From: Torymus aiolomorphi | Lineage: Eukaryota; Arthropoda; Insecta; Hymenoptera; Torymidae | DNA: 64,000 bases | Assembly: GCA_036365515.1 (NCBI GenBank) | Contig: CM070873.1 | Coordinates: 264,923,575 to 264,987,574 of the forward strand | Reading direction: 5' to 3' | Shown: positions 24,832-49,801 of the stretch, piece by piece | Position numbering within the stretch: position 1 is the stretch's first letter | How the letters are laid out: each line of letters starts with the position of its first letter | Notes under the pieces: generated by a model | What the model was told of the DNA's origin: nothing | The model's input: only the letters and a program-made list of their open reading frames with translations | Database searches by the model: none | Made by a program: the position numbers and the translations under genes

Positions 24832-26052
24832 CTTAAATCATTATTATATTAAATCATTATTTATTTTATTTATTTATTTATTTATTTATTTCCAGAAAAT
24901 ATTTACATTACATTATTATATACGAAATATACATAAGTAAGTAAATCCTACTGAGGCAAATATTATTGCCTGTGTGTAGATCTGGTACATAGAAAACTTA
25001 CAAACTAAAAAAAAATATTACAAACTACAAAATTCTTAAAAACTATATAATGGTATGTGCGTAGTGTTTGTTAACATCGATAAAATCCATTGTAGTACAT
25101 AAATAACAGTTAAATAATTTGTTAGATATATTGGTTAAGATTTAATTATTATTTTGAAATTATATTGCATCTTTTACTATAAACATTTTTAATTTTTTCT
25201 TCATTAATTGTCTGCTTAAATTCATAACTTTGAGATCCTTAGATAGCCCATTAAAGACCCTTATAGCTTCATTGTAGCTATTTTTATCACTAATTCTTTT
25301 ATCACATTTAGGTAATTGAATTGTTTTGTTTCTGGTCTTGCTCGCACTGTTTATATATTTATTTCTTAATGTAGAATAATGTAAGGATATTGACTCTAAC
25401 TGGAATAATTTTTTTATTTCAAGAGGTGGATTAGTTTGAGAGAATTTATTTTTATTTATGATTTTCAATATTTTGTTTTGTGTTGATTGTATTAGTTTCA
25501 TATTATTATCGTACGCACCACCCCAGGCAATTACCCCATAATTAATTAGACTATGAAAGAAAGCATAATATATTATCATTAATGTTTTTGTATCCATCAT
25601 ATTTTTTATCTTGGCAAAGACAAAAATTAGGTATTTGGTTTTTTTAATGATATATCTTATATGCTTATCCCATTTCATATTGTAGTCGAAATACAGCCCT
25701 AAGTATTTATGACTTTCAACTCTTTTTATTAATTGCGTTCCTATTTTGATGTTTAGTGTGCCAGGCACACTATCACAGTAGTTTCCGAGAGTCATATAGA
25801 CCGTTTTATCTATATTTAGCGACAGTTTATTTTGTGCAAGCCATTTGGCCACATGATTAAGGTAAGCACACATTTTTTCCTGAGCTGAGGACCACATGTT
25901 GTCACTTGATATGATAACCGTGTCATCAGCATAGGACATGATTGTGTCATTTTGCATACTTCCTAGTAAGTCATTGACATAAAGTATAAAAAGTAATGGT
26001 CCTAATATAGTTCCTTGGGGAACACCCGTAGTAAATTCTTTATATTCACTTT
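24832..26052 (-). mobile_element. Non-LTR retrotransposon (LINE), 3' part
   Basis: This is the minus-strand 3' portion. It holds the second half of RT, a 3' UTR (24,894-25,159) and a tail of (AAAT)n units at 24,860-24,892, typical of LINE clades with short-repeat tails. The outer flank AACTTTAAAATCATT (24,817-24,831) recurs at 49,802-49,816 beyond the 5' part, a 15-bp target duplication. The element continues at 47,639 after the Polinton. Confidence 0.9.
25160..26052 (-). pseudogene. LINE reverse transcriptase, catalytic and C-terminal part
   Basis: Reading inward from the Polinton junction, the minus strand gives the G-V-P-Q-G-T-I-L-G-P-L-L-F motif, then Y-V-N-D-L, then the catalytic S-Y-A-D-D-T-V-I box (about 25,920-25,950). 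The thumb region N-L-x-K-T-x-x-M follows, then a C-terminal domain with W-G-G-A-Y. The stop is at 25,160-25,162. The motif style suggests the CR1/L2/Jockey side of the LINE tree, but I cannot fix the clade. The frame is intact here but cut off from its N-terminus by the Polinton. Confidence 0.88.
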
Positions 26053-27088: not shown

Positions 27089-27379
27089 TTATATAAATTC
27101 TAGAAGGCATCCACCTAAAGATTTGACGAAGACTTCTCTATTAACTAATTCTGACTCTATGTTGAGAAGCGCCTCTGGCTTCTCCAGTAATAAAGAATTA
27201 ACTTTACTTGGAAGGAAAATGTCAAAACTACTGTCTAATTCAAGAACAATTTTTAAGCCGTATTTAGTGGATACCTTTTTTAATGAGGTTATCTTATACT
27301 GTTTATTTAGCTCCAAGTCCCGTAGTCGTTTTGTGGGCAGGTATGATGGACTTCTCGCTGCTTCATTTATGAGGTCCAT
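27089..27379 (-). CDS. Small Polinton protein, possible OB-fold nucleic-acid binder (left copy)
   Basis: 96 residues from ATG at 27,379. The pattern L-N-K-Q-Y-K-I-x-S-L-K-K-V-x-T-K-Y-G-x-K-I-V-L-E-L followed by F-D-I-F-L-P-S is a short beta-rich domain that I associate with small OB-like proteins recurring in insect transposon-borne gene sets. No enzymatic motif. It lies 60 bp downstream of the 176-residue gene on the same strand, which suggests co-expression. Intact here; the mirror copy is frameshifted. A single-stranded-DNA-binding role in replication is only a guess. Confidence 0.6.
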   Translation of the reverse strand: MDLINEAARSPSYLPTKRLRDLELNKQYKITSLKKVSTKYGLKIVLELDSSFDIFLPSKVNSLLLEKPEALLNIESELVNREVFVKSLGGCLLEFI

Positions 27380-32354: not shown

Positions 32355-33301
32355 ATGGATGAAGTTAAAGATCTTTGTCAGGAACATGTGAAAATTTTTG
32401 AAGAGGTGGAAAATATTTTAATATATAAATCTATGGATTCCGAAGTTATTGAACAATGGGTAGAACAATGTGTTTTATCATTAGATAGTCTTCGGGAATT
32501 ATTGAGAAAAAGAACGCTGACAACAGCTCAAAAACAATCTATTTTATACGCCATAGCAAGGATTGAGAGTATCAAAGCAAAGCTTGATGCTATAGGAAAA
32601 ACTGGTTATTGAATAGTACCAGATTTAAAAACGGATGAAATCGAGCATCGAGTTCGTTGGATTGATATTGAAAGTGCTTTTAATAAGAGGGTGAGAACTA
32701 GTATAATTGCAAATCTTGTACATATAGATATATCAACCTTTTTAAAGGACGCCTCAGTATTGTTCTGCCAACAAGTGAAGAAAATTTTGAAAGATATTCG
32801 ATGTGCCATGAAAATTAACACTGTACTATCTTGTTCATTCAAGAAACTTTCTTCTGATGTAAATGAAGATTCACAGGAAAGTATTGAAACGAAATATTTC
32901 AATACGCCAAACGCTGAAGTGGTTTTAGGTACATCTTTAAGTGAATGGTTTGATAATCATGTTTTAAATAAACTTTTGGCTGAGGTAGAAGAATTTCAAG
33001 AAAAAGATTCTGGATGGACTTTAAATTCTATTATTAATATTCAAATTAATATGAATAAGTTCAATCCATTGCGCAGTGGTAATTCATATTTACCTTTACC
33101 ACCATTTTTAGATAAAAAAAATGCCTGCATTAATATTCAAAACAAAGATAATCAATGCTTTAAATGGGCAATATTATCTGCTTTGTATCCAGTAAACCGT
33201 AAAAATCATCCTAACAGGGTTAGCAATTATCTTCAGTATGAAAATAATTTAAATATGACAGGTATAGAATTCCCTGTTACGATAAAAAAATTTTCAAGTT
33301 T
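32355..33301 (+). pseudogene. polB: Polinton polymerase region, N-terminal part (one stop, one frameshift)
   Basis: The frame opens with ATG at 32,355: an acidic helical segment of 85 codons, then TGA at 32,610-32,612. The same frame is open again from 32,613 to the stop at 33,320, so a single nonsense codon separates two parts of what may be one ORF. The second part ends with P-L-P-P-F-L-D-K-K and C-F-K-W-A-I-L-S-A-L-Y-P, which I associate with the N-terminal region of arthropod Polinton polymerases (a cysteine-protease-like F/W-A-x-L-x-A-x-x-P stretch). Around 33,297 a one-base deletion moves the homologous reading into the frame of the main polymerase ORF. Confidence 0.75.
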
Positions 33302-36085
33302 GAAAAACAAAACCCTTTAATATCGGTTAATGTCTTCGGATTGCATGAGAAAAATGTGATTCCCTTTTATTTGACACATGAAAAAAAAGAAAATCATGTA
33401 AATCTTCTTTTATTAGAAAAAACAATTAAGGGACAGCTGAAATCACATTACATATATATAAAAAATTTATCACGTCTAGTAGGAGGAAGTTTATCACATA
33501 GAAAAAAGAAGCGATATATATGTGATAGATGTTTAAATTTTTTCTTTAATGAAAATAATTTAAAAGAGCATGAAAGAATATGTAAGAATATTAATGATTG
33601 CAAGGTGAAACTTCCTATAAAAGGTAAAGATATCATCTATTTTAAAAATTTTAATTATAAAGAAAGATTACCATTCACAATATATGCAGATTGTGAATGT
33701 CTGTTAAAGCCTGTACTAGAAAACCAGGAAGATGAAGGTTTGGCTAATACTTTATCGTTTCAAAAACATGAAATGTTTAGTATAGGATATTATTTGAAGT
33801 GCAGTTTTGATGACTCTTTATCTGAATATAGATTTTATCGTGGGGTTAAACCAGCTATGTGGTTTGCTAGTGAATTGAAGGTAATACATGACCGTATTAC
33901 TAATTTATATACAAACCCACGATCTATGCCAATTTTAACACCGATAGAAATGATTAATTATTTCAATTCAAAAATTTGTCACATTTGTAACAAATTATTA
34001 GAAAACAGTGATAAGGTAAGAGATCATTGTCATCTCTCAGGAAAATATCGCGGTCCTGCTCATGCTAACTGTAATTTGAATTATCAAGATTCAAGAACGA
34101 TTCCTGTGATATTTCATAACTTAAGTGGTTATGATGCTCACTTTATAATTAATGATATATCGAATTATATGAAAGGTGATGTTGATTTACTTCCATTGAC
34201 TAAGGAGAAGTATATTTCTTTTACAAAACATGTTGAGAAAAGTGATATTAAATTTCGCTTTGTAGATTCATTTAGATTTATGCCATCTTCTTTAGAAAAA
34301 TTAGCTTCATATTTAAGTGAATATAAAATTGTTTCAAAGGAGTTTTCATCTTTAGAAAAAGAAAAAATCAGTCTTTTAACGAAGAAAGGCGTTCTGCCTT
34401 ACGAGTACCTGGATTCGTGGGAAAAGTTGGATGAAACTGAGTTACCTGAAAAAACAAAATTTTTCAGTGTGCTAAATGGTTCAACCATATCTGATGAAGA
34501 TTATGAACATGCACAAAAAGTATGGAATACCTTTAGTATTCATACCCTTGGAGAATATTCAGATCTTTATATGAAGACAGATGTTTTATTATTAGCTGAT
34601 GTTTTTGAAAATTTTCGTGATCAAAGTATAAACGTATATGGTTTAGATCCAACTCATTATTATACTACTCCAGGATTTGCATGGGATGCAATGCTAAAGT
34701 ATACTGGCATACAATTAAAATTATTAACTGATATAGATATGATTTTATTCATAGAAAGAGGTATAAGAGGTGGATTAAGTCAGTGCTCTCATCGCTACGC
34801 AGCTGCAAATCATAAATATATGACTGAAAATTATGATAAAAATAAAGAAAATACATATCTAATATATTTAGATGCTAATAATTTATATGGTTGGGCAATG
34901 ACTCAATGTCTCCCTTATGATTCCTTTGAGTGGATAGACGACTGTGAAAATTTAGATTTTTTCATAGATGATGATGCACCTTACGGGTACATTTTAGAAG
35001 TAGATTTAGAATATCCTTCAGAAATACATGACATTCATAACGACTTACCTTTTTGTCCTGAGCAAGCAAAACCACCGGGATCAAAACAGGAAAAACTTTT
35101 GGCTACACTTTCGTATAAAAAAAATTATGTTATACACTATCGATCACTTAAACAAGCTGTCAAAAATGGACTTCAGCTTGTTAAAATTCATAAAGTATTG
35201 AAATTTAAACAATCTCCATGGCTTAAGTCTTACATCAATTTAAATAGTAATATGAGGGCGTTAGCAAGAACTGATTTTGAAAAAAACTTTTTCAAATTGA
35301 TGAATAATGCTGTATATGGTAAAACTATGGAGAATGTAAGAAAACGTGTTGATGTCAAGCTATCAACTAAATGGGCTGGAAGGTATGGCGTAGAAGCACA
35401 AATATCAAGTCCCCTTTTTCATAGTATTAGTATTTTTGATGAAAATTTAGTAGCTATCCAGCTTAAAAAAGTTGAAGTTTTGTTAGATAAACCAATTTAC
35501 GTTGGACTTTCAGTTTTAGACATTTCTAAAACTCTGATTTATGATTTTCATTATAGTTATATGAAAAAAATGTATAAAGAAAATTGTAAGCTTCTTTATA
35601 CAGACACAGACAGCTTGATTTATGCTGTTGAATGTGATGATTTTTATGCTGATATGAAAAAAAATCTCTCAAAGTTTGATACTTCAGACTATCCCAGTGA
35701 AAACATCTTTAATATGCCTCATGCAAATAAAAAAATTGTTGGTCTTATGAAAGATGAGTGTAATGGTCAGATTCTTACAGAATTCGTTGGCTTAAGAAGT
35801 AAAATGTACAGTACTCGCGTTTATGGTCAAGATCATATGAAAAAAATAAAAGGTATTAAGGTTTCAGTTGTTAAAAAAACTATAAAGTTTGATGATTTTG
35901 TAGATTGTTTGCAAAATTTATCTATTAAAAAACGACAACAGTATTCCATAAGATCCCGACTCCATAATGTAGAAACTATAAAGCAGTTAAAGATTGCCTT
36001 AAGTCCATATGATGATAAAAGATATGTTCAAGACAATAATATAGATACTTTAGCATGGGGTCATTATAAAATAAATAATAAGTGA
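33302..36085 (+). CDS. polB: Polinton protein-primed family B DNA polymerase, catalytic part
   Basis: It replicates the element from its ends. Order of motifs: a C2HC finger (I-C-D-R-C ... H-E-R-I-C), ExoI (Y-A-D-C-E-C), an HNH/endonuclease-VII-like insert (I-C-N-K-L ... R-D-H-C-H-L-S-G-K-Y-R-G-P-A-H), ExoII (F-H-N-L-S-G-Y-D-A-H-F), ExoIII (Y-x-x-L-Y-M-K-T-D-V-L-L-L-A-D), PolA (Y-L-D-A-N-N-L-Y-G-W-A-M), PolB (K-L-M-N-N-A-V-Y-G-K-T), and PolC (Y-T-D-T-D-S-L-I-Y). All catalytic residues are present. First ATG at 33,341, but the protein normally continues upstream. The TGA at 36,083-36,085 overlaps a GTGAGT splice donor. Confidence 0.93.
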   Translation, partial: EKQNPLISVNVFGLHEKNVIPFYLTHEKKENHVNLLLLEKTIKGQLKSHYIYIKNLSRLVGGSLSHRKKKRYICDRCLNFFFNENNLKEHERICKNINDCKVKLPIKGKDIIYFKNFNYKERLPFTIYADCECLLKPVLENQEDEGLANTLSFQKHEMFSIGYYLKCSFDDSLSEYRFYRGVKPAMWFASELKVIHDRITNLYTNPRSMPILTPIEMINYFNSKICHICNKLLENSDKVRDHCHLSGKYRGPAHANCNLNYQDSRTIPVIFHNLSGYDAHFIINDISNYMKGDVDLLPLTKEKYISFTKHVEKSDIKFRFVDSFRFMPSSLEKLASYLSEYKIVSKEFSSLEKEKISLLTKKGVLPYEYLDSWEKLDETELPEKTKFFSVLNGSTISDEDYEHAQKVWNTFSIHTLGEYSDLYMKTDVLLLADVFENFRDQSINVYGLDPTHYYTTPGFAWDAMLKYTGIQLKLLTDIDMILFIERGIRGGLSQCSHRYAAANHKYMTENYDKNKENTYLIYLDANNLYGWAMTQCLPYDSFEWIDDCENLDFFIDDDAPYGYILEVDLEYPSEIHDIHNDLPFCPEQAKPPGSKQEKLLATLSYKKNYVIHYRSLKQAVKNGLQLVKIHKVLKFKQSPWLKSYINLNSNMRALARTDFEKNFFKLMNNAVYGKTMENVRKRVDVKLSTKWAGRYGVEAQISSPLFHSISIFDENLVAIQLKKVEVLLDKPIYVGLSVLDISKTLIYDFHYSYMKKMYKENCKLLYTDTDSLIYAVECDDFYADMKKNLSKFDTSDYPSENIFNMPHANKKIVGLMKDECNGQILTEFVGLRSKMYSTRVYGQDHMKKIKGIKVSVVKKTIKFDDFVDCLQNLSIKKRQQYSIRSRLHNVETIKQLKIALSPYDDKRYVQDNNIDTLAWGHYKINNK

Positions 36086-36169
36086 GTATATTTTTTTGTA
36101 TAATAGTAATTTATATATTAATTTATAGTAAATATTCTACATATGTAATATAGAAATTTATTATTTTAG

Positions 36170-36371
36170 GTGTCCAATGCGTGTTAAAAAGAATGTACAT
36201 TTTGATGAAAAGCTAACTGTTCATGTAATGCATGCGTGGAGGTTTGCATATCATAAGGCTCGGTGTGGAGAATGGGAACAAATTGCTCGTGACAGAGAAC
36301 GTTTTAGGAGAAGAATTGATAAAGTTAATGAAATTTTGCATCCAATTCTTGTAAAAAATGTAAGGAAATAG
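36170..36371 (+). CDS. PPP1R15 (GADD34/CReP)-like PP1/eIF2alpha-binding module
   Basis: A 64-codon frame starts with ATG at 36,177. Residues 5-9 (K-N-V-H-F) fit the RVxF docking motif for protein phosphatase 1. Residues 13-21 are L-T-V-H-V-M-H-A-W. Residues 29-47 (A-R-C-G-E-W-E-Q then A-R-D-R-E-R-F-R-R-R-I) match the conserved C-terminal block of PPP1R15 proteins, which direct PP1 to dephosphorylate eIF2alpha and restart translation. The exon can also be spliced to polB: donor GTGAGT at 36,082, acceptor TTATTTTAG ending 36,169, phase-consistent, intron 88 bp. AATAAA follows at about 36,376. Family call is from the motif pattern; function is inferred. Confidence 0.75.
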
Positions 36372-36414: not shown

Positions 36415-37219
36415 TTATTCATAAATCACTTTTTTTATCCAACTATTATGAGACTTATCAAAACCTAACCATTTTACATAAATTTTATCGCCATGTTTTT
36501 TTATAATTTTTTCTACTAAGTAAATATCAGGATATTTAGTCTTCATAAGTTCTTCTTCATAGAATCCGCCATCGATTGGTTTATCTTGATAATCTTTCAA
36601 ATGATATGTAAATGGTGATGTAGGTAATACTTTATTTATTGTAAAAATTTCTGTAGACCAGTTTGGTGTATATCCTTTCTCGAAAACAGTTTTATTTTTA
36701 CTTATTCGAACTTTATCACCAAGTTTAAATTTTGCACGCCTACAAGGACGTTTAGAGGTTTTCTGATGAATGCATAAACGATTATAAACTTTATTAACTG
36801 TTGTAGAATTAACATCTGCGGGCTTCATACCAATCGTTCGGTGCTTAGTATTATTATACTGTAAAGTTAGGTCTTGCAAAATATCTATCCATTTATAACT
36901 GCCTTGTAAACTAAAGTTTTTCCACATTTTGTTTTTTAATGTACGATTAAAACGTTCACAAATTGAGGCTTTGAGTTTGCTATAGGATGAATATAGATTT
37001 ATATTATATTTTAGCATTAAACTTTCAAATTCTTTATTATAAAATTCTTTTCCTCGATCAGTTTGTAAATTTTTAGGTATTCGTCCTTTTTTTAATATAA
37101 ATTTCATAGCTTCAGATACATTTTTTCCAGTTTTACTTTTCACTGGTACCGTCCAAGCAAACTTAGAAAACACATCAATGACAGTAAGAAGATACTTGTA
37201 ACCTTTGTTTTTATGTGCA
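36415..37219 (-). pseudogene. Polinton integrase, catalytic core and chromodomain (split gene, 3' part)
   Basis: Retroviral-type integrase that joins the element ends to the target. Visible here: V-I-D-V-F-S-K-F-A-W, the second catalytic Asp in L-Q-T-D-R-G-K-E-F, and the Glu in C-E-R-F-N-R-T-L-K. An SH3-like region follows (K-L-G-D-K-V-R-I), then a C-terminal chromodomain-like segment (Y-L-V-E-K-I-I ... Y-V-K-W-L-G-F ... S-W). The first catalytic Asp is in the other part, 6.7 kb away. The gene is convergent with polB; their stops are about 40 bp apart beyond the PPP1R15-like exon. Confidence 0.92.
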
Positions 37220-37233
37220 TACCCTATTGAAAA

Positions 37234-37430
37234 AAATCATGTGACTAATCATATGATTAATCCAGTGATTAATCACATGATTAATCATATGATAAATCAT
37301 GTGATCAATCATGTGATTAATCATGTGGTTGATCATGTGATCAATCATGTGATTAATCACATGATATTATCGACGGAAAAATCATGTGATTAATCACATG
37401 ATTAATCACATGATTGATCACATGAATTTT
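37234..37430. repeat. Array of 12-bp palindromic repeats, left end
   Basis: About sixteen units related to ATCATGTGATTA or its complement TAATCACATGAT run head to tail, interrupted once by a GATATTATCGACGGAAAA segment. Because the unit is nearly self-complementary, the array can fold on itself at many registers. It sits directly inside the terminus, where transposase-binding repeats are often found. Confidence 0.92.
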
Positions 37431-38339
37431 TCCAGAATCCAGGAATATGCTCTGCTGAATTTATAACTTAATTTATTTATTATCTAGCAGTTTACCACTG
37501 CTATTATAAATGAAAAATAATAGTTAAATGAAACATTTACAATATAATATAATTATTTGTATATTACAGTTATTTAGATAATTAATTTAATTGAAGATAT
37601 AGACAACTTTATTGTTATTACAATTATAATGTTCCGACATAACTGAAGAATGGGACAAAATAAGAACTTCTAAATATATTCTGCCCTAATGAAAAGATGG
37701 GATATTTGGGTTATTGGGTATAGATGGGCAATTGATATACGATAAATGGGCCCTATGGGTTTTCCTTGCGGGTCCCATATGACTGATATAAAACTAGTTA
37801 ACATTTTTTTCGGATTACAAACATTTTATTCGAATAATAATCAATATTACTTCTTATACTACTTTGATAAAAGTATATTTTTATTATAAATTAAGGCTAC
37901 AACTGTAAATAAACAATAAAGACACGTAACATACCTGTATAAGGGAATAAGATTATTATAAATGATATTGTTATTAATGTAGAGAAATGATGTTTAAGGA
38001 GCCTCGTGCTCGCGCTACTCGACTCCGACCCGTGGTAGCAAATTCACACGAAGCCGGAGCCGAGCGCGCCCACGTGTACTCGATTTTGGCAGCTACCATG
38101 AACAGTTGCGACGACGTCAGCGACAGCGCGAGGAGGCCACTACATGGCGATGCTGTTTCTATTAAAAAAACAGAGAAGATATTTTACATAAAGTCAGCTG
38201 CTCAAAATTTTAGAATTGTTTATGTTTAATTTGTGAGTTAACTAATATTTTTTATTAAACAAAATTTTTTCTGATTCTTTATTAAAAACCATTTAAAATG
38301 AGCCCTGGGACGATATTAGCAAACATTTAAAATGATCCA

Positions 38340-40610
38340 TTTGGAAAGTCTCAGATTCGCTACTTATTAGTATACCTTCATCTGAAAAAAAGAAAATAAT
38401 AAGTACAGCAGAATATTTTTGATTGGACAAAATTTTTACTGAATCTTTATTAAAGTCCCTTTCAAATAAGCCCTGATCGATGTTCGCAAACCCACTTGAA
38501 AAGAATTGTATATTTTTTAATCTCAGTAGAAACCAATAATTGGTATTTTTGAGAACCTGCTGGATTTGAGATCTTAATATTATTCATATATCTTATGTCA
38601 TGGATCTTGTCGCTGAATTTTCTCAAAGCGTGAAAAATATATAACATCTATTTTCAACAATATTTTCAACATCAGGCATTTATACTTTCCTAAATTTTCA
38701 ATGGGAGACGCTTACACTGTTAATTTGTAAACTTCATATCTATTCGAAACTGAATTTTATAAGTAATCTATTATTATGTGTACCAAAGCTAAAATTAATA
38801 TACTATAAAAAAGTTGCAATCAAATTAGTGGAAAGACAATTAACAATTGTATATTCCAATGCGCATACAAATACTTCTTACTCAATAATTTTCAAATAAA
38901 ATATGGTGTTCTTATTAAGGCTTCGTTTCATGAATTTCATAAACTATGTAATCTACAAACTTATAACTCATTAAGATCCATAATACAATTATTTAATTTT
39001 CAACTTAACACTGAATAGTTTATGAAATTTCATGAAGCAAAGGCTTAATAAGAAAACCATATTTTATTTGAAAATTATTGGTTATGGTGTATACGTCTGT
39101 GCATTTGAATTTGCAATTGCTAAATTGTCTTTCAACTACTTTATTGCAACTTTTTTATAGTCATTTACTTTTAGCTTTGGCACACGATAATATAGATTAC
39201 TTATAAAATTGTTTCGAATAGATATGAAGATTACAAATAAAGTTAAGCGTCTCCTATTGAAAATTTAGGACAGTAAATAAAAATATTATTACTTATTAGC
39301 CAGTCAAAAATATTGTTGAAAATAAATATTTAATATATTTTTCATGCTTTGAAAAAATCAGCTACAAGATCCATGACATGAGATATATGAATAATATTAA
39401 GATCTCAAATCCAGCAGGTTGTCGAAAAAGCCCTGATCGATGTTCGCAAACCCACTTGAAAAGAATTCTATATTTTTTTAATGTCAGTAGAAACCAATAA
39501 TTGGTATTTTTGACAACCTGCTGGATTTGAGATCTTAATATTATTCATATATCTTATGCCATGGATCTTGTCGCTGAATTTTCTCAAAGCATGAAAAATA
39601 TATAACATCTATTTTCAACAATATTTTCAACAGGCATTTATACTTTCCTAAATTTTCAATGGGAGACGCTTACACTGTTAATACACTCTATTTGTAAACT
39701 TCATACCTATTCGAAACTGAATTTTATAAGCAATCTATTATTATGTGTACCAAAGCTAAAAGTAAAATACTATAAAAAAGTTGCAATCAAATTAGTTGAA
39801 AGACAACTAACAATTGTATATTCCAATGCGCATACAAATACTTCTTACTCAATAATTTTCAAATAAAATATGGTGTTCTTATTAAGGCTTCGTTTCATGA
39901 ATTTCATAAACTATGTAATCTACAAACTTATAACTCATTAAGATCCATAATACAATTATTTAATTTTCAACTTAACACTGAATAGTTTATGAAATTTTAT
40001 GAAGCGGAGGCTTAATAAGAAAACCATATTTTATTTGAAAATTATTGGTTATGGAGTATACGTCTGTGCATTTGAATTTGCAATTGCTAAATTGTCTTTC
40101 AACTACTTTATTGCAACTTTTTTATAGTCATTTACTTTTAGCTTTGGCACACGATAATATAGATTACTTATAAAATTGTTTCGAATAGATATGAAGATTA
40201 CAAATAGAGTTAAGCGTCTCCTATTGAAAATTTAGGACAGTAAATAAAAATATTATTACTTATAAGCCAGTCAAAAATATTGTTGAAAATAAATATTTAA
40301 TATATTTTTCATTCTTTGAAAAAAATCAACTACAAGATCCATGACATGAGATATATGAATAATATTAAGATCTCAAATCCAGCAGGTTGTCGAAAATACC
40401 AATTATTGGTTTCTACTGACATTTAAAAATATACAATTCTTTTCAAGTCGGTTTGAGAACATCGATCAGGGCATATTTGAAAGGCACTTTAATAAAGATT
40501 CAGTAAAAATATTGTCGAATCAAAAATATTCTGCTGTACTTATGATTTTCTTTTTCCAGATGAAGGTATATACTAATAAGTAGTGAATCTGAGACTTTCC
40601 AAATGGATCA
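38340..40610. repeat. Double palindromic module of the TA foldback (left arm)
   Basis: A ~1-kb palindrome occurs twice in tandem (about 38,456-39,425 and 39,428-40,490). Each begins with CCCTGATCGATGTTCGCAAA, passes through TGGATTTGAGATCTTAATAT and GGGAGACGCTTACACTGTTA, and returns as the reverse complement. Half-copies are close but not identical. Confidence 0.85.
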
Positions 40611-40619
40611 TAAAGAAAA

Positions 40620-41505
40620 TATAACGACATATACAAATTAAAAGCAAATTTTTTCTCAATCAATATTTTATACAAAAAATTTCAGGATTGAGTAAAGAAA
40701 ATGAGAATACTTAAGTTATCACAAAAAATTGCAAAGAATAACAACTTTCCACATTAGAGGGGTTAGAAGCGAAAAAGGGCTTACCGAATCTATGCTTGTA
40801 GGTGACTTCGCTGTCTTGTTGTCTCAAATGGGTGATCACCTCCAAGTGATAGACGCGACGAAAGAATCAAAACCTACCAGGACACCGTACAACCGCCGCT
40901 GTCATCGCTGGGAACGCCACGGACGAGACGATTCTATCGCAAATTCGAAAGCACGCACGAGACACGGCAGCAAGATAGCGCACGCTCGCTCGCTCGCTCG
41001 GTCTTATTCGCATGGTCGGACGTGAACCAACCGGGCTTCCGTACAAGATAGCGCACGCTCGCTCGCTCGCTCGCTCGCTCGGTCTTATTCGCATGGTCGG
41101 ACGTGAACCAACCGGGCTTCCGTAGGCAGCACCAACAGCTGATTGAATTGTTTGTATAAGAAATGCCTACCGAGGCTGCCGTGCGCATGTCTCGTCCGTG
41201 GCGTTCCCAGCGATGACAGCGGCGGTTTCAGTACGGTGTCCTGGTGGGTTTTGATTCTTTCGTCGCGTCCATCACTTGGAGGTGATCACCCATTTGAGAC
41301 AACAAGACAGCGAAGTCACCTGCAAAGCATAGATTCGGTAAGCCCTTTCTCGCTTCTAACCTCTCTAATGTGGAAAGTTGTTATTCTTTGCAATTTTTTG
41401 TGTAAACTCAACTATTCTCATTTTCTTTACTCAATCCTGAAATTTTTGTATAAAATATTGATTGGGAAAAAATTTGCTATTTATTTGTATATGTGGTTAT
41501 ATTTT
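40620..41505. repeat. Centre of the TA foldback with GCTC-rich tandem units
   Basis: Outer parts (40,735-40,935 and 41,185-41,395) are inverted copies (TGGGTGATCACCTCCAAGTG and complement). Between them lie two tandem units (40,971-41,043 and 41,044-41,123). Each has a (GCTC)n run, GGTCTTATTCGCATGGTCGG and GTGAACCAACCGGGCTTCCG; unit 2 has two more CGCT repeats. It is locally GC-rich, unlike the rest of the element, and could be captured host promoter DNA. Confidence 0.75.
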
Positions 41506-41509
41506 CTTT

Positions 41510-42850
41510 ATTAGTATACCTTCATCTGAAAAAAGAAAATAATAAGTACAGCAGAATATTTTTAATTCTACAAAATTTTTACTGAATCTTTATTAAAGAC
41601 CCTTTCAAATAAGCCCTGATCGATATTCGCTAACCCACTTGAGAAGAATTGTATATTTTTAAATGTCAGTAGAAAGCAATAATTTATATTTTCGACAACA
41701 CAATGGATTTGGGATTTTAATATTATTCATGTATCTCATGTCATGGATCTTGTCACTGAATTTTCTCAAAGCATTAAAAATATATTAAACATCTATTTTC
41801 AACAATATTTTCAACAGGCTTATACTTTCCTAAGTTTTCAATGGGAGACGCTTACACGGTTAATACACTCTTTTTGTAAACTTCATATCTATTTGAAACT
41901 GAATTTTATAAGTAATCTATTATTATATGTACCAAAGCTAAAAATAAATTACTATAAAAAAGTTGCAATCAAGTTAGTCGAAAGACAATTTAGCAATTGC
42001 AAATTCAAATGCACAGTATGCAATATGCAGTATGCATATGCAGTATGCACAGTATGCAATATATACACGTATACTCCATAACCAATAATTTTCAAATAAA
42101 ATATGGTTTTCTTATTAAGCCTTTGCTTCATGAAATTTCATAAACTATTCAGCGTAAGTTGAAAATTAAATAATTGTATTATGGATCTTAATGAGTTATA
42201 AGTTTGTAGATTACATAGTTTATGAAATTTGTGAAACGAAGCCTTAATAAGAACACCATATTTTATTTGAAAATTATTGAGTGAGAAGTATTTGTATGCG
42301 CATTGGAATATATAATTGTTAATTGTCTTTCAACTAATTTGATTGCAACTTTTTTATAGTATTTTACTTTTAGCTTTGCTACACATAGTAATAAATTACT
42401 TATAAAATTCAGTTTCGAATAGGTATGAAGTTTACAAATAGAGTGTATTAACAGTGTAAGCGTCTCCTATTGAAAATTTAGGAAAGTACAAATGCCTGTT
42501 GAAAATATTGTTGAAAATAGATGTTTAATATATTTTTCATGCTTTGAGAAAATTCAGCGACAAGATCCATGACATAAGATATATGAATAATATTAAGATC
42601 TCAAATCCAGCAGGTTGTCAAAAATAGCAATTATTAGTTTCTACTGACATTAAAAAAATATACAATTCTTTTCAAGTGGGTTTGCGAACATCGATCAGGG
42701 CTTATTTGAAAGGGACTTTAATAAAGATTCAGTAAAAATTTTGTCCAATCAAAAATATTCTGCTGTACTTATTATTTTCTTTTTTTCAGATGAAGGTATA
42801 CTAATAAGTAGCGAATCTGAGACTTTCCAAATGGATCATTTTAAATGTTT
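41510..42850. repeat. Single palindromic module of the TA foldback (right arm)
   Basis: One copy of the same ~1-kb palindrome, starting CCCTGATCGATATTCGCTAA near 41,614 and returning by 42,700. It contains a local stutter of TATGCA/CAGTATGCA (about 42,010-42,060) not seen in the left copies. Confidence 0.85.
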
Positions 42851-43749
42851 GCTAATATCGTTCCAGGGCTCATTTTAAATGGTTTTTAATAAAGAATCAG
42901 AAAGAATTTTGTTTAATAAAAAATATTAGTTAACTCACAAATTAAACATAAACAATTCTAAAATTTTGAGCAGCTGACTTTATGTAAAATATCTTCTCTG
43001 TTTTTTTAATAGAAACAGCATCGCCATGTAGTGGCCTCCTCGCGCTGTCGCCGACGTCGTCGCAACTGTTCATGGTAGCTGCCAAAATCGAGTACACGTG
43101 GGCGCGCTCGGCTCCGGCTTCGTGTGAATTTGCTACCACGGGTCGGAGTCGAGTAGCGCGAGCACGAGGCTCCTTAAACATCATTTCTCTACATTAATAA
43201 CAATATCATTTATAATAATCTTATTCCCTTATACAGGTATGTTACGTGTCTTTATTGTTTATTTACAGTTGTAGCCTTAATTTATAATAAAAATATACTT
43301 TTATCAAAGTAGTATAAGAAGTAATATTGATTATTATTCGAATAAAATGTTTGTAATCCGAAAAAAAATGTTAACTAGTTTTATATCAGTCATATGGGAC
43401 CCGCAAGGAAAACCCATAGGGCCCATTTATCGTATATCAATTGCTCATCTATACCCAATAACCCAAATATCCCATCTTTTCATTAGGGCAGAATATATTT
43501 AGAAGTTCTTATTTTGTCCCATTCTTCAGTTATGTCGGAACATTATAATTGTAATAACAATAAAGTTGTCTATATCTTCAATTGAATTAATTATCTAAAT
43601 AACTGTAATATACAAATAATTATATTATATTGCAAATGTTTCATTTAACTATTTTTTTCATTTATAATATAGCAGTGGTAAACTGCTAGATAATAAATAA
43701 ATTAAGTTATAAATTCAGCAGAGCATATTCCTGGATTCTGGAAAAATTC

Positions 43750-43952
43750 ATGTGATCAATCATGTGATTAATCATGTGATTAATCACATGATTTTTCCGT
43801 CGATAATATCATGTGATTAATCATATGATTGATCACATGATTAACCACATGATTAATCACATGATTGATCACATGATTGATCACATGATTTATCATATGA
43901 TTAATCATGTGATTAATCACTGGATTAATCATATGATTAGTCACATGATTTT
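43750..43952. repeat. Array of 12-bp palindromic repeats, right end
   Basis: Mirror of the left array, including the TTTTCCGTCGATAATATC interruption. The number and order of variants differ slightly from the left side. Confidence 0.92.
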
Positions 43953-43965
43953 TTTCAATAGGGTA

Positions 43966-44094
43966 CGGTATCATTTCCACAAGATCAGCTTGCCATGTTT
44001 CATCTAGATCTCGTATATCATATTTTCGACGTGTGTAATTACAACGAGCAGGTTTGTGTAATTCTTCTACTATATCTTTTTTATTTTCCATCAT
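43966..44094 (-). pseudogene. Polinton integrase, N-terminal part (split gene, 5' part)
   Basis: ATG at 44,094. The frame contains H-K-P-A-R and then W-Q-A-D-L-V-E-M with the first catalytic Asp, up to the TA at 43,964-43,965 where the foldback element entered. Removing the insert and one TA makes the reading continue in phase into 37,219. Reading on into the insert gives an artefactual tail of V-I-N-H-M repeats. Confidence 0.88.
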
Positions 44095-44100
44095 CAAAGG

Positions 44101-44334
44101 TTATGAGTTACTTTTACGTATGGTTGCTATTTCAAATTCCAATTTTCTCAATTTATCATCTATTTCATCTCTATGGATGTCAACAATATCATCTAAATTT
44201 TTAAGCTCAGTTCTTAAGTGTGCTGTTGACTGATACACTTTTTGTACTTCAGCTTGTACAATACGTTCGAGAGTAATCAAATTTACAGCATCATTCTTAT
44301 CGTTAGGAGCTGCGACATTACATAATCTTTTCAA
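44101..44334 (-). CDS. Coiled-coil ORF just upstream of integrase
   Basis: 77 codons, in the same frame as integrase and separated from it by a single TAA (44,101-44,103). It contains N-V-A-A-P-N-D-K-N-D-A-V-N, reminiscent of the short motif before trimeric coiled coils in phage and viral fibre proteins, then a long heptad-like region (L-R-T-E-L-K-N-L-D-D-I-V). No in-frame ATG is present: the frame begins around TTG 44,334 at the edge of the terminal repeat, so the start codon has been lost or lies in an upstream exon. It could be a degraded fibre-like protein or an N-terminal extension of the integrase. Confidence 0.5.
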   Translation of the reverse strand: MKRLCNVAAPNDKNDAVNLITLERIVQAEVQKVYQSTAHLRTELKNLDDIVDIHRDEIDDKLRKLEFEIATIRKSNS

Positions 44335-44639
44335 ACATTTCCTTACTATAAAGGTTAGGCGAGCTGGGTCCTAGCCACTCGTTTCTTTTTCTTATTTCAG
44401 CTCTAATACTTTTAATATAGCATTCTTACAGGTCTTTAATAATTTCTTCTTTCAGGACTTATAATTTAAAAGTTTTAAAGTCTTGAATCTTAATACAACA
44501 CTTTTCTTACAGTTATAAAAGGTAAATTCATTTGTCGAATTAATTCTAAGTTATTTTCACGTCTCATACTTAAACTTTTTCACACTATTCATATTATAAG
44601 TCCCTTAGGCATCTTATACTTACTATTTTAAACTTTCAG

Positions 44640-45880
44640 ATACTTTAACTTTTTACGTATAATGAATTCATATTTTTTCTAAGATATTCTCAGCTGTTGA
44701 ACTTTAACTTTTCAGTCTCTTCGTAGGGACTTTAATTTTTTACATAGCACGTATCACGAATTTATAAGTTATTCCTTTTTCTAAGATATTCTCAGCTATT
44801 GAACTTTAACTTTTCAGTCTCTCTGTAGGGACTTTAATTTTTTTCACAGCACGTATCATGAATTTATAAGTTATTTTCAAATCACTTTCTTTAATGAATT
44901 CATATTTTTTCTGAGATATTCTCAGCTGTTGTAGTTTAACTTTTCAGTCTCCTCGTAGGGACTTTAATTTTTTACATAGCACGTATCACGAATTTATAAG
45001 TTATTCATTTTTCTAAGACATTCTCAGCTATTGAACTTTAACTTTTCAGTCTCTCTGTAGGGACTTTAATTTTTTTCATAACACGTATCATGAATTTATA
45101 AGTTACTTTAAAATTTCTTACTTTAATGAATTCATATTTTTTTCTAAGATATTCTCAGCTGTTGAACTTTAACTTTTCAGTCTCTTCTTAGGGACTTTAA
45201 TTTTTTACATAGCACGTATCGTGAATTTATAAATTATTAATTTTTCTAAGACATTCTCAGCTATTAAACTTTAACTTTTCAGTCTCTTTGTAGGGACTTT
45301 AATTTTTTTCATAACACGTATCATGAATTTATAAGTTACTTTAAAATTTCTTACTTTAATGAATTCATATTTTTTCTAAGATATTCTCAGCTGTTGAACT
45401 TTAACTTTTCAGTCTCTTCTTAGGAACTTTAATTTTTTACATAGCACGTATCGTGAATTTATAAATTATTAATTTTTTCTAAGACATTCTCAGCTATTAA
45501 ACTTTAACTTTTCATTCTCTTTGTAGGGACTTTAATTTTTCACAGCACGTATCATGAATTTATAAGTTACTTTAAAATTTCTTACTTTAATGAATTCATA
45601 TTTTTTTTCTAAGATATTCTCAGCTGTTGAACTTTAACTTTTCAGTCTCTTCTTAGGGACTTTAATTTTTTACATAGCACGTATCATGAATTTATAATTT
45701 ATTTTCACATCTCTTACTTTAACTTTTTCACATATAATGAGTTCATATTTTTTTTCTAAGATTTTCTCAGCTATTGTAGTTTAGCTTTCGAATCTCTCCG
45801 TAGGGACTTTAATTTTTACATTGCATGTATTATGAATTAATAAGTTATTATCACATCTTTCACTCTAACTTTTAACACTA
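44640..45880. repeat. Tandem ~110-bp repeats in the right terminal repeat
   Basis: Same family as 28,000-28,870 in the opposite orientation, with about ten copies of the GGGACTTTAATTTTT core (first near 44,727, last near 45,802). The array is about 400 bp longer than in the left arm, so copy number has changed since the arms were last equal. Confidence 0.85.
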
Positions 45881-45953
45881 TTATATTAACTCTACTTTTT
45901 TTCTTGAATAATATTCAAATAATGTTATCTACATTTCCAGTATATAACTTATC

Positions 45954-46484
45954 ATGGAACTAATTGTAGATACACAAGGTTTTAAAGATAACAACGGCAA
46001 TTTTATATTTAAAGAAATTGCTTATATAGATCCTAATGCGTTAAATCCGGTGCCGTACGTTGCGACATTTCAACCACCCTGTGATTGGAGTGATTTAGAC
46101 CAGAATGTAAAAATTTTAAATAGATATTTACAATCCAATCTGCACGGAATTCATTGGGAACACGGAGAGGTGCCGTATTCATACCTGTCAACGGCTTTCG
46201 ACAAATTGAAAGAAAAAGTGCAGGGGTCGTTATTAACAATTTGGGTCAAAGGTGAACACAAAAAACACTGGCTGCAACCCTATTTCGATAATATAAGAAA
46301 CTTGGAAGATTTGGGTTGTCCATCTATAAGAACTCCTGGATTTATACGACCGCTAGCCTGCATTAATCATTGTCCCGGGTGGAAACAGAATTATTCAGTT
46401 GAAATAGTTTGCGCTTTATACCGCTGGGTGGAAGACTTGAGAGAGCAATATTCAACCCCTGAAAGTTCTGATACGTCAGAATAA
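45954..46484 (+). CDS. Conserved Polinton-borne protein, 176 aa (right copy)
   Basis: Mirror of 27,439-27,969, intact from ATG to TAA. Differences include V to A after K-E-I, A to V in the E-K-x-Q-G-S block, Q to H in V-K-G-E-x-K-K, and loss of one Cys (K-Q-N-C to K-Q-N-Y). That loss weakens the idea that all C-terminal Cys residues bind zinc. Both copies remaining open argues that the gene was under selection until recently. Confidence 0.65.
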   Translation: MELIVDTQGFKDNNGNFIFKEIAYIDPNALNPVPYVATFQPPCDWSDLDQNVKILNRYLQSNLHGIHWEHGEVPYSYLSTAFDKLKEKVQGSLLTIWVKGEHKKHWLQPYFDNIRNLEDLGCPSIRTPGFIRPLACINHCPGWKQNYSVEIVCALYRWVEDLREQYSTPESSDTSE

Positions 46485-46544
46485 ATAAGTAAGTAATTCT
46501 ATAAAAAAAAATATAAATAATAATTTATCATTTCTTTTTTCAGT

Positions 46545-46834
46545 CATGGACCTCATAAATGAAGCAGCGAGAAGTCCATCATACCTGCCCACAAAACGAC
46601 TACGGGACTTGGAGCTAAATAAACAGTATAAGATAACCTCATTAAAAAGGTATCCACTAAATACGGCTTAAAAATTGTTCTTGAATTAGACAGTAGTTTT
46701 GACATTTTCCTTCCAAGTAAAGTTAATTCTTTATTACTGGAGAAGCCAGAGGCGCTTCTCAACATAGAGTCAGAATTAGTTAATAGAGAAGTCTTCGTCA
46801 AATCTTTAGGTGGATGCCTTCTAGAATTTATATA
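46545..46834 (+). pseudogene. Small OB-like Polinton protein, frameshifted right copy
   Basis: Mirror of 27,089-27,379. The run of A after CCTCATT is five instead of six near 46,645, which shifts the frame after about 33 codons. The downstream sequence remains alignable to the left copy in the other frame. Confidence 0.8.
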
Positions 46835-47638
46835 ATTATAAGTTTTTAGATAATTTTCTCTTTAACTTTAATTTTAAATTTTCAAAGTTATTTGCTAAAT
46901 TGTAATACTTTTTAATTAAGATGTTCACTAGTTTCTAAATATATTTTTATAGTAGAAAGATTAATTTGAAACTTTTTATACTCGTAGATTAAGATGTATT
47001 CTACTATGTATTACTTTTAAGCTTTTTAAATAAATATGAAAAAGCTTTTTAAATAAATATGAAATAATCTTACATATCTTTTTTATTTTCCCTTAAAGTT
47101 TCCACATCCCAATGTCCTCTATGAAATATTTATTCTTATAATAGAAAATTTTCCTTAAAAACTAACTTGTTTAAATATTTTAAAGTTTCTTTTGAATTTA
47201 AAAATAGTCATTTGATATTGTTAATATAAATTTCATTGAATTGCTCATCATTAACTTTTTAAAATTTCTATGAACTTATAAAATATCTTTGTAGAATCTT
47301 ATACAATATAAAATATACTGATTGAATATACTAAGATAAAATATACTTATAAAATATAAGACTACTTATAATTAACAAATAACACTATATGAATATTATA
47401 AAAATATTCTATATTCACTTACAACATAACATCACATGAGGGCCCCATGCCCCCTGCAACATGACATACGTACGCATTTTATCGATAGAGTAAATGTTCA
47501 ATGCGCCCTCTACAACCGGGCCTCTCGCATGGTGACTTTGCACCCTACCTTACCGACGGACGGTAAGTAGTGCTCGGTGGGTAAGTGGCGCGGGAGCCGC
47601 TCTGGCGCGGTAGCCGCGCTGCCCCTACTACTCACTTT

Positions 47639-48404
47639 TACAGTCTTGAATTTTTACTCTTTGCCGCCTATCTGTGAGATAGCTAGTCATCAGTTTTAAG
47701 GCACTATCCCTTACTCCGTATCGTTCAAGCTTATCTAAAAGAACTCTATGATTAACAGTGTCAAATGCTTTGGCTAAGTCTAGAAAAGCAACAATATTGG
47801 TTTACTTTTATCTAAGTTTTCGTATGATATTTGATATATAATTTAATGCGTCAGTAGTTCCCCTATTTTTAACGGAACCGTATTGTTTTTCTGATATTAT
47901 GTTATGTTTTTCAAAAAAGTGGTATAATCTATTATAAATTATTTTTTCAAAAATTTTTGCAATGTTCGATATTAAAGAGATTGGTCTGTAATTACTGATA
48001 TTAGATTTTTCACCAGCCTTGTAAATAGGGACTACCTCAGCATTTTTGAGCGCGTCAGGCCAGATAGATTTCACAATACATAAATTGAAGATATATTCTA
48101 AGGGCACACATATATATTCAGAGAGAATTTTCAATGATTTAACGTTAATATTGTCTACACCTCCAGATTTATTTTTCAATGTATTGATTATTTTGTATAT
48201 CTCAGCAAAATCTGTCGGACGAAAGAAAATGGATTCAGGATTCCTATCTGGAAGTTTCAGGTTATTATTATTTATATTAGCAAATTGAGCACTCAAATTT
48301 GGTCCTATTTTGCTAAAATAGGTGTTCATAGCATATGCTATATCAGTTTTATTTTCGATTTTTTGATTGTTTTCGTATATATATTTTATTGGATTATCAT
48401 GCAC
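47639..48404 (-). pseudogene. LINE reverse transcriptase, N-terminal part
   Basis: Motifs N-Y-R-P-I-S-L-I and F-E-K-I-I-Y-N-R-L are in the frame ending at 47,808. After a frameshift around 47,800-47,810 the reading continues with [13 protein letters not shown] and Y-L-T-D-R-R-Q-R-V up to the Polinton. So the ORF had at least two breaks (about 48,430 and 47,805) besides the insertion. Confidence 0.88.
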
Positions 48405-48464
48405 ACTATTTCTCCCTAATTTAGTTTTAATTATGTTCCATAATTCCCTAGAGTTTTCGCTATT

Positions 48465-49622
48465 TCATTTTACCATTTCCTTTGCATATTTAAATTTTGC
48501 TTCTTTAATAACTTTGTTCAATATCTTAGTGTAATTTGTATACTCTTTTTTTAGGGCTTCAGAAGTGGGATTGTTTTTCCATAAGATATACAGTGTCTCT
48601 TTAGTAGTACACGAGACTATAATAGCACTAGTAATCCAATTTTTTCTCGGAAGTTTATTTTTAAATTGTTTTTTGGTAGTGGACGCATCAATACAATTAT
48701 TTATCATGTCAATTAATGTGTTAACTGCAAGATTAGGATCCTGCATAGACAATATTGAGTACCAGTTTGAATTATTTGCAACATGTTTTAACTTGTTGTA
48801 ATTAATTGATTTCATATTGAATTTGTTCGGCTGATTTATTTCTAATTTATCTATAGTTATAAATAATGGGTAGTGATCATTAAATGAATTCGTTATTTTA
48901 AATGAATTAATATTTATATTTTTAGTTTTTGTATAGAAATTGTCGATGCAGGTACCTCTTTTATTATCAGATGAAGGCCTTGTTATTCCAGTAAAGCATG
49001 GCGTAAATTTATGTTCCAAGAGATCATTTAAAAATTCTTGTGTTATAAGGTTATCTGTTGAGTCAGTCTTACTAAAATTTTCGTCTAATATATCTATGTT
49101 AAAATCCCCGATTATACAATGGTTCTTAGTATTTAATTGGTCTCTTAGGAATTTTTTCAGGCTATGAACAAATTCATACTTTTTTATATTGTGTGATCTA
49201 TAGATCGCTGAGATTCTTACAGTTTCGGTGCCAATTAGTTTTATAACCGAGCTTAAGATACGTATGTTGTCGACCACTATAATTTCTGTGTGTTCAGATA
49301 GTTCATCCTTTATATACATCATAACTCCATCTGCTTTATTCATTTTACTCTCACTATAGTAACTTTTGTAACCTGATATGTTGTACAATGGAGTATATTG
49401 CACATTCCAGGATTCAGTACATATAATGACACTTGGTCTTACGGCTAAACATTCAATAAAAGTTTCAAGTTTTTCAAAGTTTTGTTTTATACTTCTAATA
49501 TTTACACATAAAATCAAATTTTTACCTTTATCGATACTTTTATTGAGTGTTTGTACATTACCAAAAGCTTGTTTTTTTTGTGAAATAACTTCAAAATTTA
49601 GTTGTTGTTGATCCATGTTCAA
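48465..49622 (-). CDS. LINE ORF2, apurinic-like endonuclease domain
   Basis: The frame opens at 49,622. It shows the endonuclease/exonuclease/phosphatase fold of LINEs: C-V-N-I-R-S-I, then C-T-E-S-W (catalytic Glu), G-D-F-N-I-D (catalytic Asp/Asn), and S-F-N-D-H-Y-P-L (terminal Asp-His). This enzyme nicks target DNA to prime reverse transcription. A short Ser/Thr/Pro-rich frame ending at 49,591 overlaps its start and is probably the ORF1 tail. The frame stops at 48,465, just before RT begins in another frame. Confidence 0.85.
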   Translation of the reverse strand: MNMDQQQLNFEVISQKKQAFGNVQTLNKSIDKGKNLILCVNIRSIKQNFEKLETFIECLAVRPSVIICTESWNVQYTPLYNISGYKSYYSESKMNKADGVMMYIKDELSEHTEIIVVDNIRILSSVIKLIGTETVRISAIYRSHNIKKYEFVHSLKKFLRDQLNTKNHCIIGDFNIDILDENFSKTDSTDNLITQEFLNDLLEHKFTPCFTGITRPSSDNKRGTCIDNFYTKTKNININSFKITNSFNDHYPLFITIDKLEINQPNKFNMKSINYNKLKHVANNSNWYSILSMQDPNLAVNTLIDMINNCIDASTTKKQFKNKLPRKNWITSAIIVSCTTKETLYILWKNNPTSEALKKEYTNYTKILNKVIKEAKFKYAKEMVK

Positions 49623-49801
49623 AATTCAGAAGTTCAGAAGTTGCTGAGTCTGTTGGGTAATAAATTTGTGATATGGTTCTGTTTAAATTTATTGGTGAGG
49701 TTGTGGCCGATAAATTACCAGCTGATGTTGCCGGACTGATAAAAATTCTACTTTGTCTTCTTGGTGTCGTTACGACCGGTGATTTACCGGTTATTAATTT
49801 G
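49591..49801 (-). pseudogene. Probable tail of LINE ORF1
   Basis: A Thr/Ser/Pro-rich frame enters from the 5' truncation point and stops at 49,591, overlapping the ORF2 start by about 30 bp. I see no zinc knuckle or other domain. The position upstream of the endonuclease is the only reason for the call. Confidence 0.4.

Follow-up and report, generated by a model that had tools for sequence, protein, structure and literature searches.

A PPP1R15 (GADD34/CReP)-like core module beside the polymerase gene of a Polinton in Torymus aiolomorphi

What would a mobile element gain from carrying, beside its own DNA polymerase gene (polB), a short frame that resembles the core of PPP1R15 (GADD34/CReP), the host protein that directs protein phosphatase 1 (PP1) to eIF2alpha? 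The question is raised by a locus of the wasp Torymus aiolomorphi that lies in a 64,000-nucleotide stretch of DNA, here called the window, whose numbering is used throughout. Sequence comparison indicates that the 64-codon open reading frame (ORF) at this locus is a genuine PPP1R15 core module in a Polinton. The module and its recognizable parts are as follows.

36177-36371, plus strand: PPP1R15 (GADD34/CReP) core module, 64 aa plus stop
36189-36203, plus strand: RVxF-type PP1 docking motif K-N-V-H-F, placed by sequence comparison
36219-36224, plus strand: Phi-Phi motif V-H, at the same spacing from RVxF (F+6, F+7) as human PPP1R15A V564-H565
36261-36317, plus strand: block RCGEWEQIARDRERFRRRI, with equivalents of human R578, W582, F592, R595 and I596

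The original prediction had proposed the PPP1R15 assignment from these motifs, all of which are present between 36189 and 36317, and profile and pairwise searches bear it out. In a phmmer search of 177,635 PDB sequences, the window module matched human PPP1R15A with E=4.7e-11, DP71L with E=2.1e-5 and PPP1R15B with E=0.02, while PF10488 (PP1c_bdg) was its sole Pfam match at E<=1, with a score (19.3 bits) that lies under the 26.1 cut-off. A profile built from eight modules (the window copy, one from Nasonia, three from a Polinton family F3, one from a family F2, and the ENA proteins P0001 and P0003) placed PPP1R15A (1e-15), DP71L (1.9e-10) and PPP1R15B (5.8e-8) far above the next, unrelated protein (0.11), which is the profile match that had been proposed as a check. 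None of four proteins matched NCBIfam. A protein search with the module returned three small relatives from ENA (P0001-P0003), a search with the module part of the Nasonia protein P0004 among proteins of length 366-1165 returned P0004 alone from 18 candidates, and scans of IMG/VR with the module and with polB confirmed no relative in a collection that may hold few insect Polintons. The C-terminal residues of the window copy are unlike those of a second group of copies and unlike those of P0001, a difference that would most simply be explained by one base in an A-run.

The residues that matter for function in the human protein are retained. According to a review (PMC10743859), the V and F of KVRF, V564-H565, R578, W582, F592, R595 and I596 of PPP1R15A are PP1 contacts or important for G-actin. 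Counting from KVRF 555-558 of PPP1R15A, we found the equivalents of V556, F558, V564 (as V or I), H565, R578, W582, F592, R595 and I596 in all four element modules compared (window, Nasonia, F3 and F2), with RVxF and Phi-Phi at human spacing in the window copy. The most conserved part of the modules is the actin/eIF2alpha block rather than RVxF alone. After this block the window module continues for 17 residues, the Nasonia module for 18 and the F2 module for 41; in the first two, the remaining length cannot accommodate the W616-R620 actin helix. The window module is also devoid of the N-terminal membrane part and the PEST region that are described for the human protein. Given the missing helix and N-terminal region, the module corresponds to the core and not to full-length PPP1R15.

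The identification of the host element as a Polinton, also part of the original prediction, is confirmed by polB, an integrase, inverted repeats and a 6-bp target duplication. We refer to its family as F1, and its features in the window are listed below.

26053-47632, no strand: Polinton element of family F1, defined by inverted-repeat arms, ends and target duplication
26053 to about 29140 and about 44319 to 47632: terminal inverted repeats (TIRs), in blocks, about 3 kb each
26047-26052 and 47633-47638: 6-bp target duplication CACTTT
33773-36085, plus strand: polB, 770 aa from the first ATG
32613-33320, plus strand: N-terminal-polB-like frame, in another frame, overlapping the main polB at 33248-33320 and labelled by eye
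36082-36169, plus strand: putative 88-bp intron, GTGAGT...TTTTAG, predicted, with agreeing phases
36415-37236, minus strand: integrase, C-terminal piece (rve 17.7 and chromo 16.4 bits, both under cut-off)
37235-43938, no strand: insertion with its own inverted repeats (37235-38518 and 42653-43938), which splits the integrase frame of the window copy
43780-44100, minus strand: frame with the N-terminal integrase piece, beyond the insertion, by comparison with F1 copy L013
27439-27969, minus strand, mirrored at 45954-46484, plus strand: TIR-borne ORF of no assigned function, without a Pfam match
27089-27379, minus strand: small TIR-borne ORF, with a look-alike tail (by eye) on the polB of Nasonia protein P0082

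Both genes that define a Polinton/Maverick, polB and an rve integrase, were named through their relatives. The window polB is related to DNA-directed DNA polymerases (PF03175), its own Pfam match being an EndoVII-like segment just under the cut-off (22.9 against 23.6 bits), and the window integrase piece is 63% identical to the integrase of F2, whose rve match is above cut-off (44 bits). In copy L013 the integrase is uninterrupted at the insertion site. Coding frames within the terminal inverted repeats are present twice per element. When the F2 ATPase, PLA2, protease, 189-aa ORF and capsid-protein pieces were compared by tblastn at 1e-3, none matched the window element, a search blind to virion genes that have no kinship with the F2 set; the stretch 44191-44331 weakly matches one small F2 ORF (1.4e-7). 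The ORFs at 29-32 kb have no Pfam match over cut-off and could be unrelated virion genes. Around the element, pieces of a reverse-transcriptase element (non-LTR-like by eye, minus strand) flank it at 25160-26050 and 47808-49625, and the Polinton seems to lie within that element. Elsewhere in the window, Mariner-like transposase (5175-6086), hAT/ZMYM-like (7070-9448) and Ty3/Gypsy-like (274-2261) frames were recognized by eye.

The module is a regular constituent of the family. A search of the genome (1.08 Gb) gave 612 candidates, of which 150 were scored and all 150 matched the module, which means at least 150 F1 copies; 146 of these carry a stop-free module, and in 64, the window's included, all 64 residues are identical. 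In 28 of 28 loci examined (L001-L028, which represent 27 of the 150 places, L001 and L009 being one place), the module lies between polB on the same strand and the integrase on the opposite strand. A second F1 copy (C5:75916229 to about 75929957, 13.7 kb) is bounded by the target duplication ACGGTC, and ends with a 6-bp duplication were thus found in both copies looked at. In many of the L001-L028 copies polB is frame-broken at the same few places, while the module is stop-free in 146 of the 150 scored copies; these recurrent breaks may be either homopolymer assembly errors or shared decay.

The original prediction placed the frame next to polB, and this adjacency holds. It is, however, probably not a free-standing gene in F1, since its sequence context suggests an exon joined to polB by the 88-bp intron. 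The polB stop codon TGA spans the GTGAGT donor, so retention of the intron ends polB there, whereas the agreeing phases mean that the predicted splice would extend polB into the module in frame. Position 36170, from which the prediction had counted, is the first base after the TTTTAG acceptor, and the module ATG at 36177 follows seven bases after the acceptor. Across the 27 copies compared with the window, the donor GT is kept in 26 (L022 deviates) and the acceptor AG in all 27, with L027 lacking one base just after it.

This arrangement is further strengthened by a gene model from Nasonia. Among the 120 polB relatives listed of 7195, the best are from Nasonia, followed by Leptopilina and Megastigmus, and one of these 120, isoform X1 of the RefSeq model LOC103317258 (P0004), continues from polB into the module at residues 605-664; gene models missing a last exon would hide further fusions of this kind. 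The P0004 polB is 76% identical to the window polB (457/599), and its module, with PF10488 at 25.0 bits just under cut-off, is 58% identical to the F1 module, has an intact frame and has no Met at the position of the window ATG. A further Nasonia protein from another locus (P0005) ends in what appears to be a retained intron. The polB of Nasonia P0082 (LOC116418324) bears a different tail, resembling by eye the small TIR-borne protein, as a second type of C-terminal polB extension.

A search of other insect Polintons had also been proposed in the original prediction, and besides Nasonia the module was found in two further families of the same genome. The genome search with PF10488 at E<=0.001 yielded ten loci, all over the cut-off, which belong to a second family, F2. 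Within the 3.2 kb of each locus, polB was found in 8/10 and an integrase in 8/10, every locus having at least one of the two, and compared with F1 the polB end is 49-54% and the integrase 61-64% identical. The F2 module exceeds the PF10488 cut-off (33.1 bits). One F2 copy combines polB, module and integrase with an ATPase (Pox_A32, 31.9 bits, over cut-off), a PLA2 (48.2 bits) and a protease-like ORF (Peptidase_C5, 13.5 bits, under cut-off). The same copy also carries the gene of a double-jelly-roll capsid protein, whose two pieces are separated by a stop (PF21738, 126 and 165 bits), as well as a 189-aa ORF without a Pfam match, which we take to be penton-like. At E up to 10, where 150 of 348 candidates were scored, the same search revealed the third family, F3: of ten loci fetched, two were F2 and eight F3, seven of the latter with an integrase nearby. 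The F3 copy L047 contains counterparts of the F2 ATPase, PLA2, protease and 189-aa ORF, followed by module, integrase and polB pieces, and the F2 capsid-protein pieces had no match within the 12.4 kb fetched. In both F2 and F3 the module is encoded separately from polB: copy L033 of F2 has it as an independent frame whose ATG stands in CACCATG, and in L047 a single base separates its ATG from the upstream gene's stop. The module therefore occurs in three gene settings, one for each family.

We examined whether the module is maintained by selection, since neutral evolution, together with absence from every related Polinton, had been named as an observation that would refute the prediction. The F1 copies are nearly identical and thus uninformative on selection within the species. 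From F3, 28 copies were fetched and 27 gap-free modules compared, the partial copy L072 being dropped and the decayed copies L048 and L052 kept. Variants common to at least three F3 copies were synonymous in 11 cases and nonsynonymous in 8, where 22-27% synonymous changes are expected, an excess with p between 0.0008 and 0.004 depending on the transition/transversion weight. Variants found in exactly two copies (2 synonymous, 6 nonsynonymous) are out of line with that class, and single-copy variants (17 synonymous against 41 nonsynonymous or stop, including one stop) match the expectation without selection. Shared and single variants differ accordingly (Fisher p=0.03), a comparison to be read with two cautions: kinship among the copies makes shared variants non-independent, and the profile search that supplied the copies prefers intact modules. 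Between F1 and eight F3 copies, dN was 0.32-0.36 and dS 1.2-1.9, a signal that could in part reflect selection on a host gene if the modules were captured separately. Overall, the F3 module shows signs of being kept under selection, which, with its presence in Nasonia and in two further families, runs counter to that refuting condition, while the F1 copies are too alike to judge.

As to origin, the F1 and F3 modules are 54-60% identical, while F1 and F2 share 38% overall and 52% over the 33-residue block, and the F2 module has the short linker between RVxF and the block that is also seen in R15B and DP71L. These differences of F2 from F1 and F3 hint at two captures of PPP1R15. The host PPP1R15 gene itself was not found in the genome by the PF10488 search, by an R15B fragment (65 matches, with 66 of 66 candidates scored) or by one DNA pattern (4 matches). 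The loci read in this hunt were 12 of F2 and 28 of F3 among the 150 PF10488 rows and one relic from the DNA pattern, with rows showing F1 places and scores taken as F1; the host gene may be among the remaining PF10488 and R15B rows, and an intron inside the motif would hide it. The relic, L076 (C2:200667090), is 47% identical to the F1 module, has an internal stop and shows neither polB nor integrase clearly in the 4.4 kb around it (C2:200664600-200669000); it was rejected as the host gene. This PPP1R15-like relic is either an old Polinton remnant or a host pseudogene.

We consider it likely that the F1 ORF is a PPP1R15-derived, PP1-targeting accessory gene of the Polinton, which would dephosphorylate eIF2alpha and so sustain translation. 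Its likely product would be a polB whose C-terminus is extended by splicing to the module; a 64-aa protein from the module's own ATG is a possible second product. RVxF and Phi-Phi would hold the module on PP1, the R-x-G-x-W...RF--RI block would engage G-actin and eIF2alpha, and removal of the phosphate by the PP1-module complex would let translation continue during expression of the element despite active eIF2alpha kinases. Splicing in Torymus aiolomorphi, PP1 binding, eIF2alpha as the substrate and the benefit to the element are all inferred from sequence. That the element would need such a module is argued by analogy with DP71L and HSV-1 gamma-34.5, which are described as sustaining translation against responding eIF2alpha kinases (PMC10807198).

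Three other readings were weighed against this one. Because the F1 and Nasonia modules are set for fusion with polB, and because Polinton-like elements have polymerase fusions, for example with a helicase (PMC12721341), the module might instead bring PP1 to the polB replication complex and act on a replication or integration protein and not on eIF2alpha; we regard this as improbable, given that the most conserved part is the actin/eIF2alpha block, beyond RVxF, and that F2 and F3 keep the module in a frame separate from polB. More improbable still is a passive capture, in which a host last exon, splice acceptor included, came to lie behind polB and was just carried along. The acceptor preceding the ORF, the near-identical F1 copies, which alone show no selection, and the two-copy F3 variants (two synonymous against six) would fit such an event, but the synonymous enrichment of F3 variants in at least three copies and not in singletons, the frame kept in Nasonia at 58% identity and the presence of the module in three gene settings speak against it. 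Specifically, it should be noted that the F3 variant pattern has already weakened it.

A reading that touches only the form of the product is that the polB splice fusion is unused and the module is made as a separate small protein from the ATG at 36177, as F2 and F3 suggest. The position of this ATG seven bases past the acceptor, the CACCATG context of the separate frame in L033 and the ATG one base after the upstream stop in L047 agree with this, yet the fused Nasonia model P0004, the reading of P0005 into an apparent intron, the conserved GTGAGT donor with its matching phase and the lack of a Met at the corresponding place in Nasonia make it a somewhat unlikely account of F1.

The original prediction had further read the module as pointing to a virus-like phase in which the element faced an eIF2alpha-kinase response. 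The window element, without a relative of the F2 virion genes, does not bear this out by itself, whereas the F2 capsid protein and the F3 relatives of ATPase, PLA2 and protease suggest it for the wider group. A phase that meets a stress response is plausible for F2, which has the capsid protein, and for F3, which has other virion-type genes; for F1 it is a guess. Taken together, these observations permit a broader and tentative picture, possible though short of probable, in which the Polintons of this insect lineage act, or until recently acted, as infectious viruses facing eIF2alpha kinases, with at least two captures, a splice-controlled polB tail and packaging of F1 by relatives. As parts of that picture, the R15B/DP71L-like core of F2 (short linker) and the R15A-like core of F1 and F3 (long linker) would have been taken up separately; intron retention would give plain polB, and splicing, in F1 and Nasonia, a polymerase carrying an eIF2alpha phosphatase; and capsid-bearing relatives, F2 among them, may package F1, a family of at least 150 copies in which no virion gene was found.

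Bearing on the question of whether animal Polintons have an infectious stage, a translation-rescue module with signs of selection inside them indicates indirectly that the elements, when expressed, run into a stress response of the host. Searches of CC-licensed PMC literature returned no paper linking Polintons with PPP1R15, with GADD34, or with eIF2alpha and protein phosphatase 1. Viral PPP1R15 mimics are already known, and the new setting is a Polinton-borne module. Polintons would thereby be added, beside African swine fever virus (ASFV) and HSV-1, to the few DNA elements in which a PPP1R15 mimic is known, and the window module is an example set for joining to a replicative polymerase. A possible role of eIF2alpha phosphorylation in insect defence against DNA viruses is a further suggestion of these results.

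By comparison with known systems, the window module is closest to the core of PPP1R15A (GADD34), with which it shares RVxF, Phi-Phi with His, the equivalents of R578, W582, F592, R595 and I596, and W at F+12, at 48% identity; PPP1R15A differs in its N-terminal membrane part, PEST region and W616-R620 helix, and the window module sits on a mobile element. The core of PPP1R15B (CReP) has the same block, and its short linker between RVxF and the block resembles that of F2, although the PPP1R15B fragment has E-Y where the Phi-Phi of F2 is I-H. DP71L of ASFV, the best PDB match of F2 (1.6e-8), is likewise a small viral PPP1R15 core, but it belongs to a different virus group and is without a polymerase fusion (a 71-residue PDB chain). 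ICP34.5 (gamma-34.5) of herpes simplex virus, a herpesvirus protein likened to the Polinton module by description only, has a GADD34-like C-terminus that recruits PP1 to eIF2alpha, according to PMC10807198. On the side of the elements, the PolB of a Megastigmus wasp adintovirus (P0015) is 71% identical over a 271-residue query but lacks a PPP1R15 module, ending after the first 11 residues of the WGHY tail. Adintoviruses and capsid-encoding Polintons share polB with the window element, in which no virion gene was found; with F2 and F3 copies they also have in common the integrase, the ATPase, PLA2 and a protease-like ORF. Finally, the helicase-PolB fusions that PMC12721341 describes in Polinton-like viruses also add a domain to polB, but there it is a replication domain, whereas the domain here would be a host-stress module.
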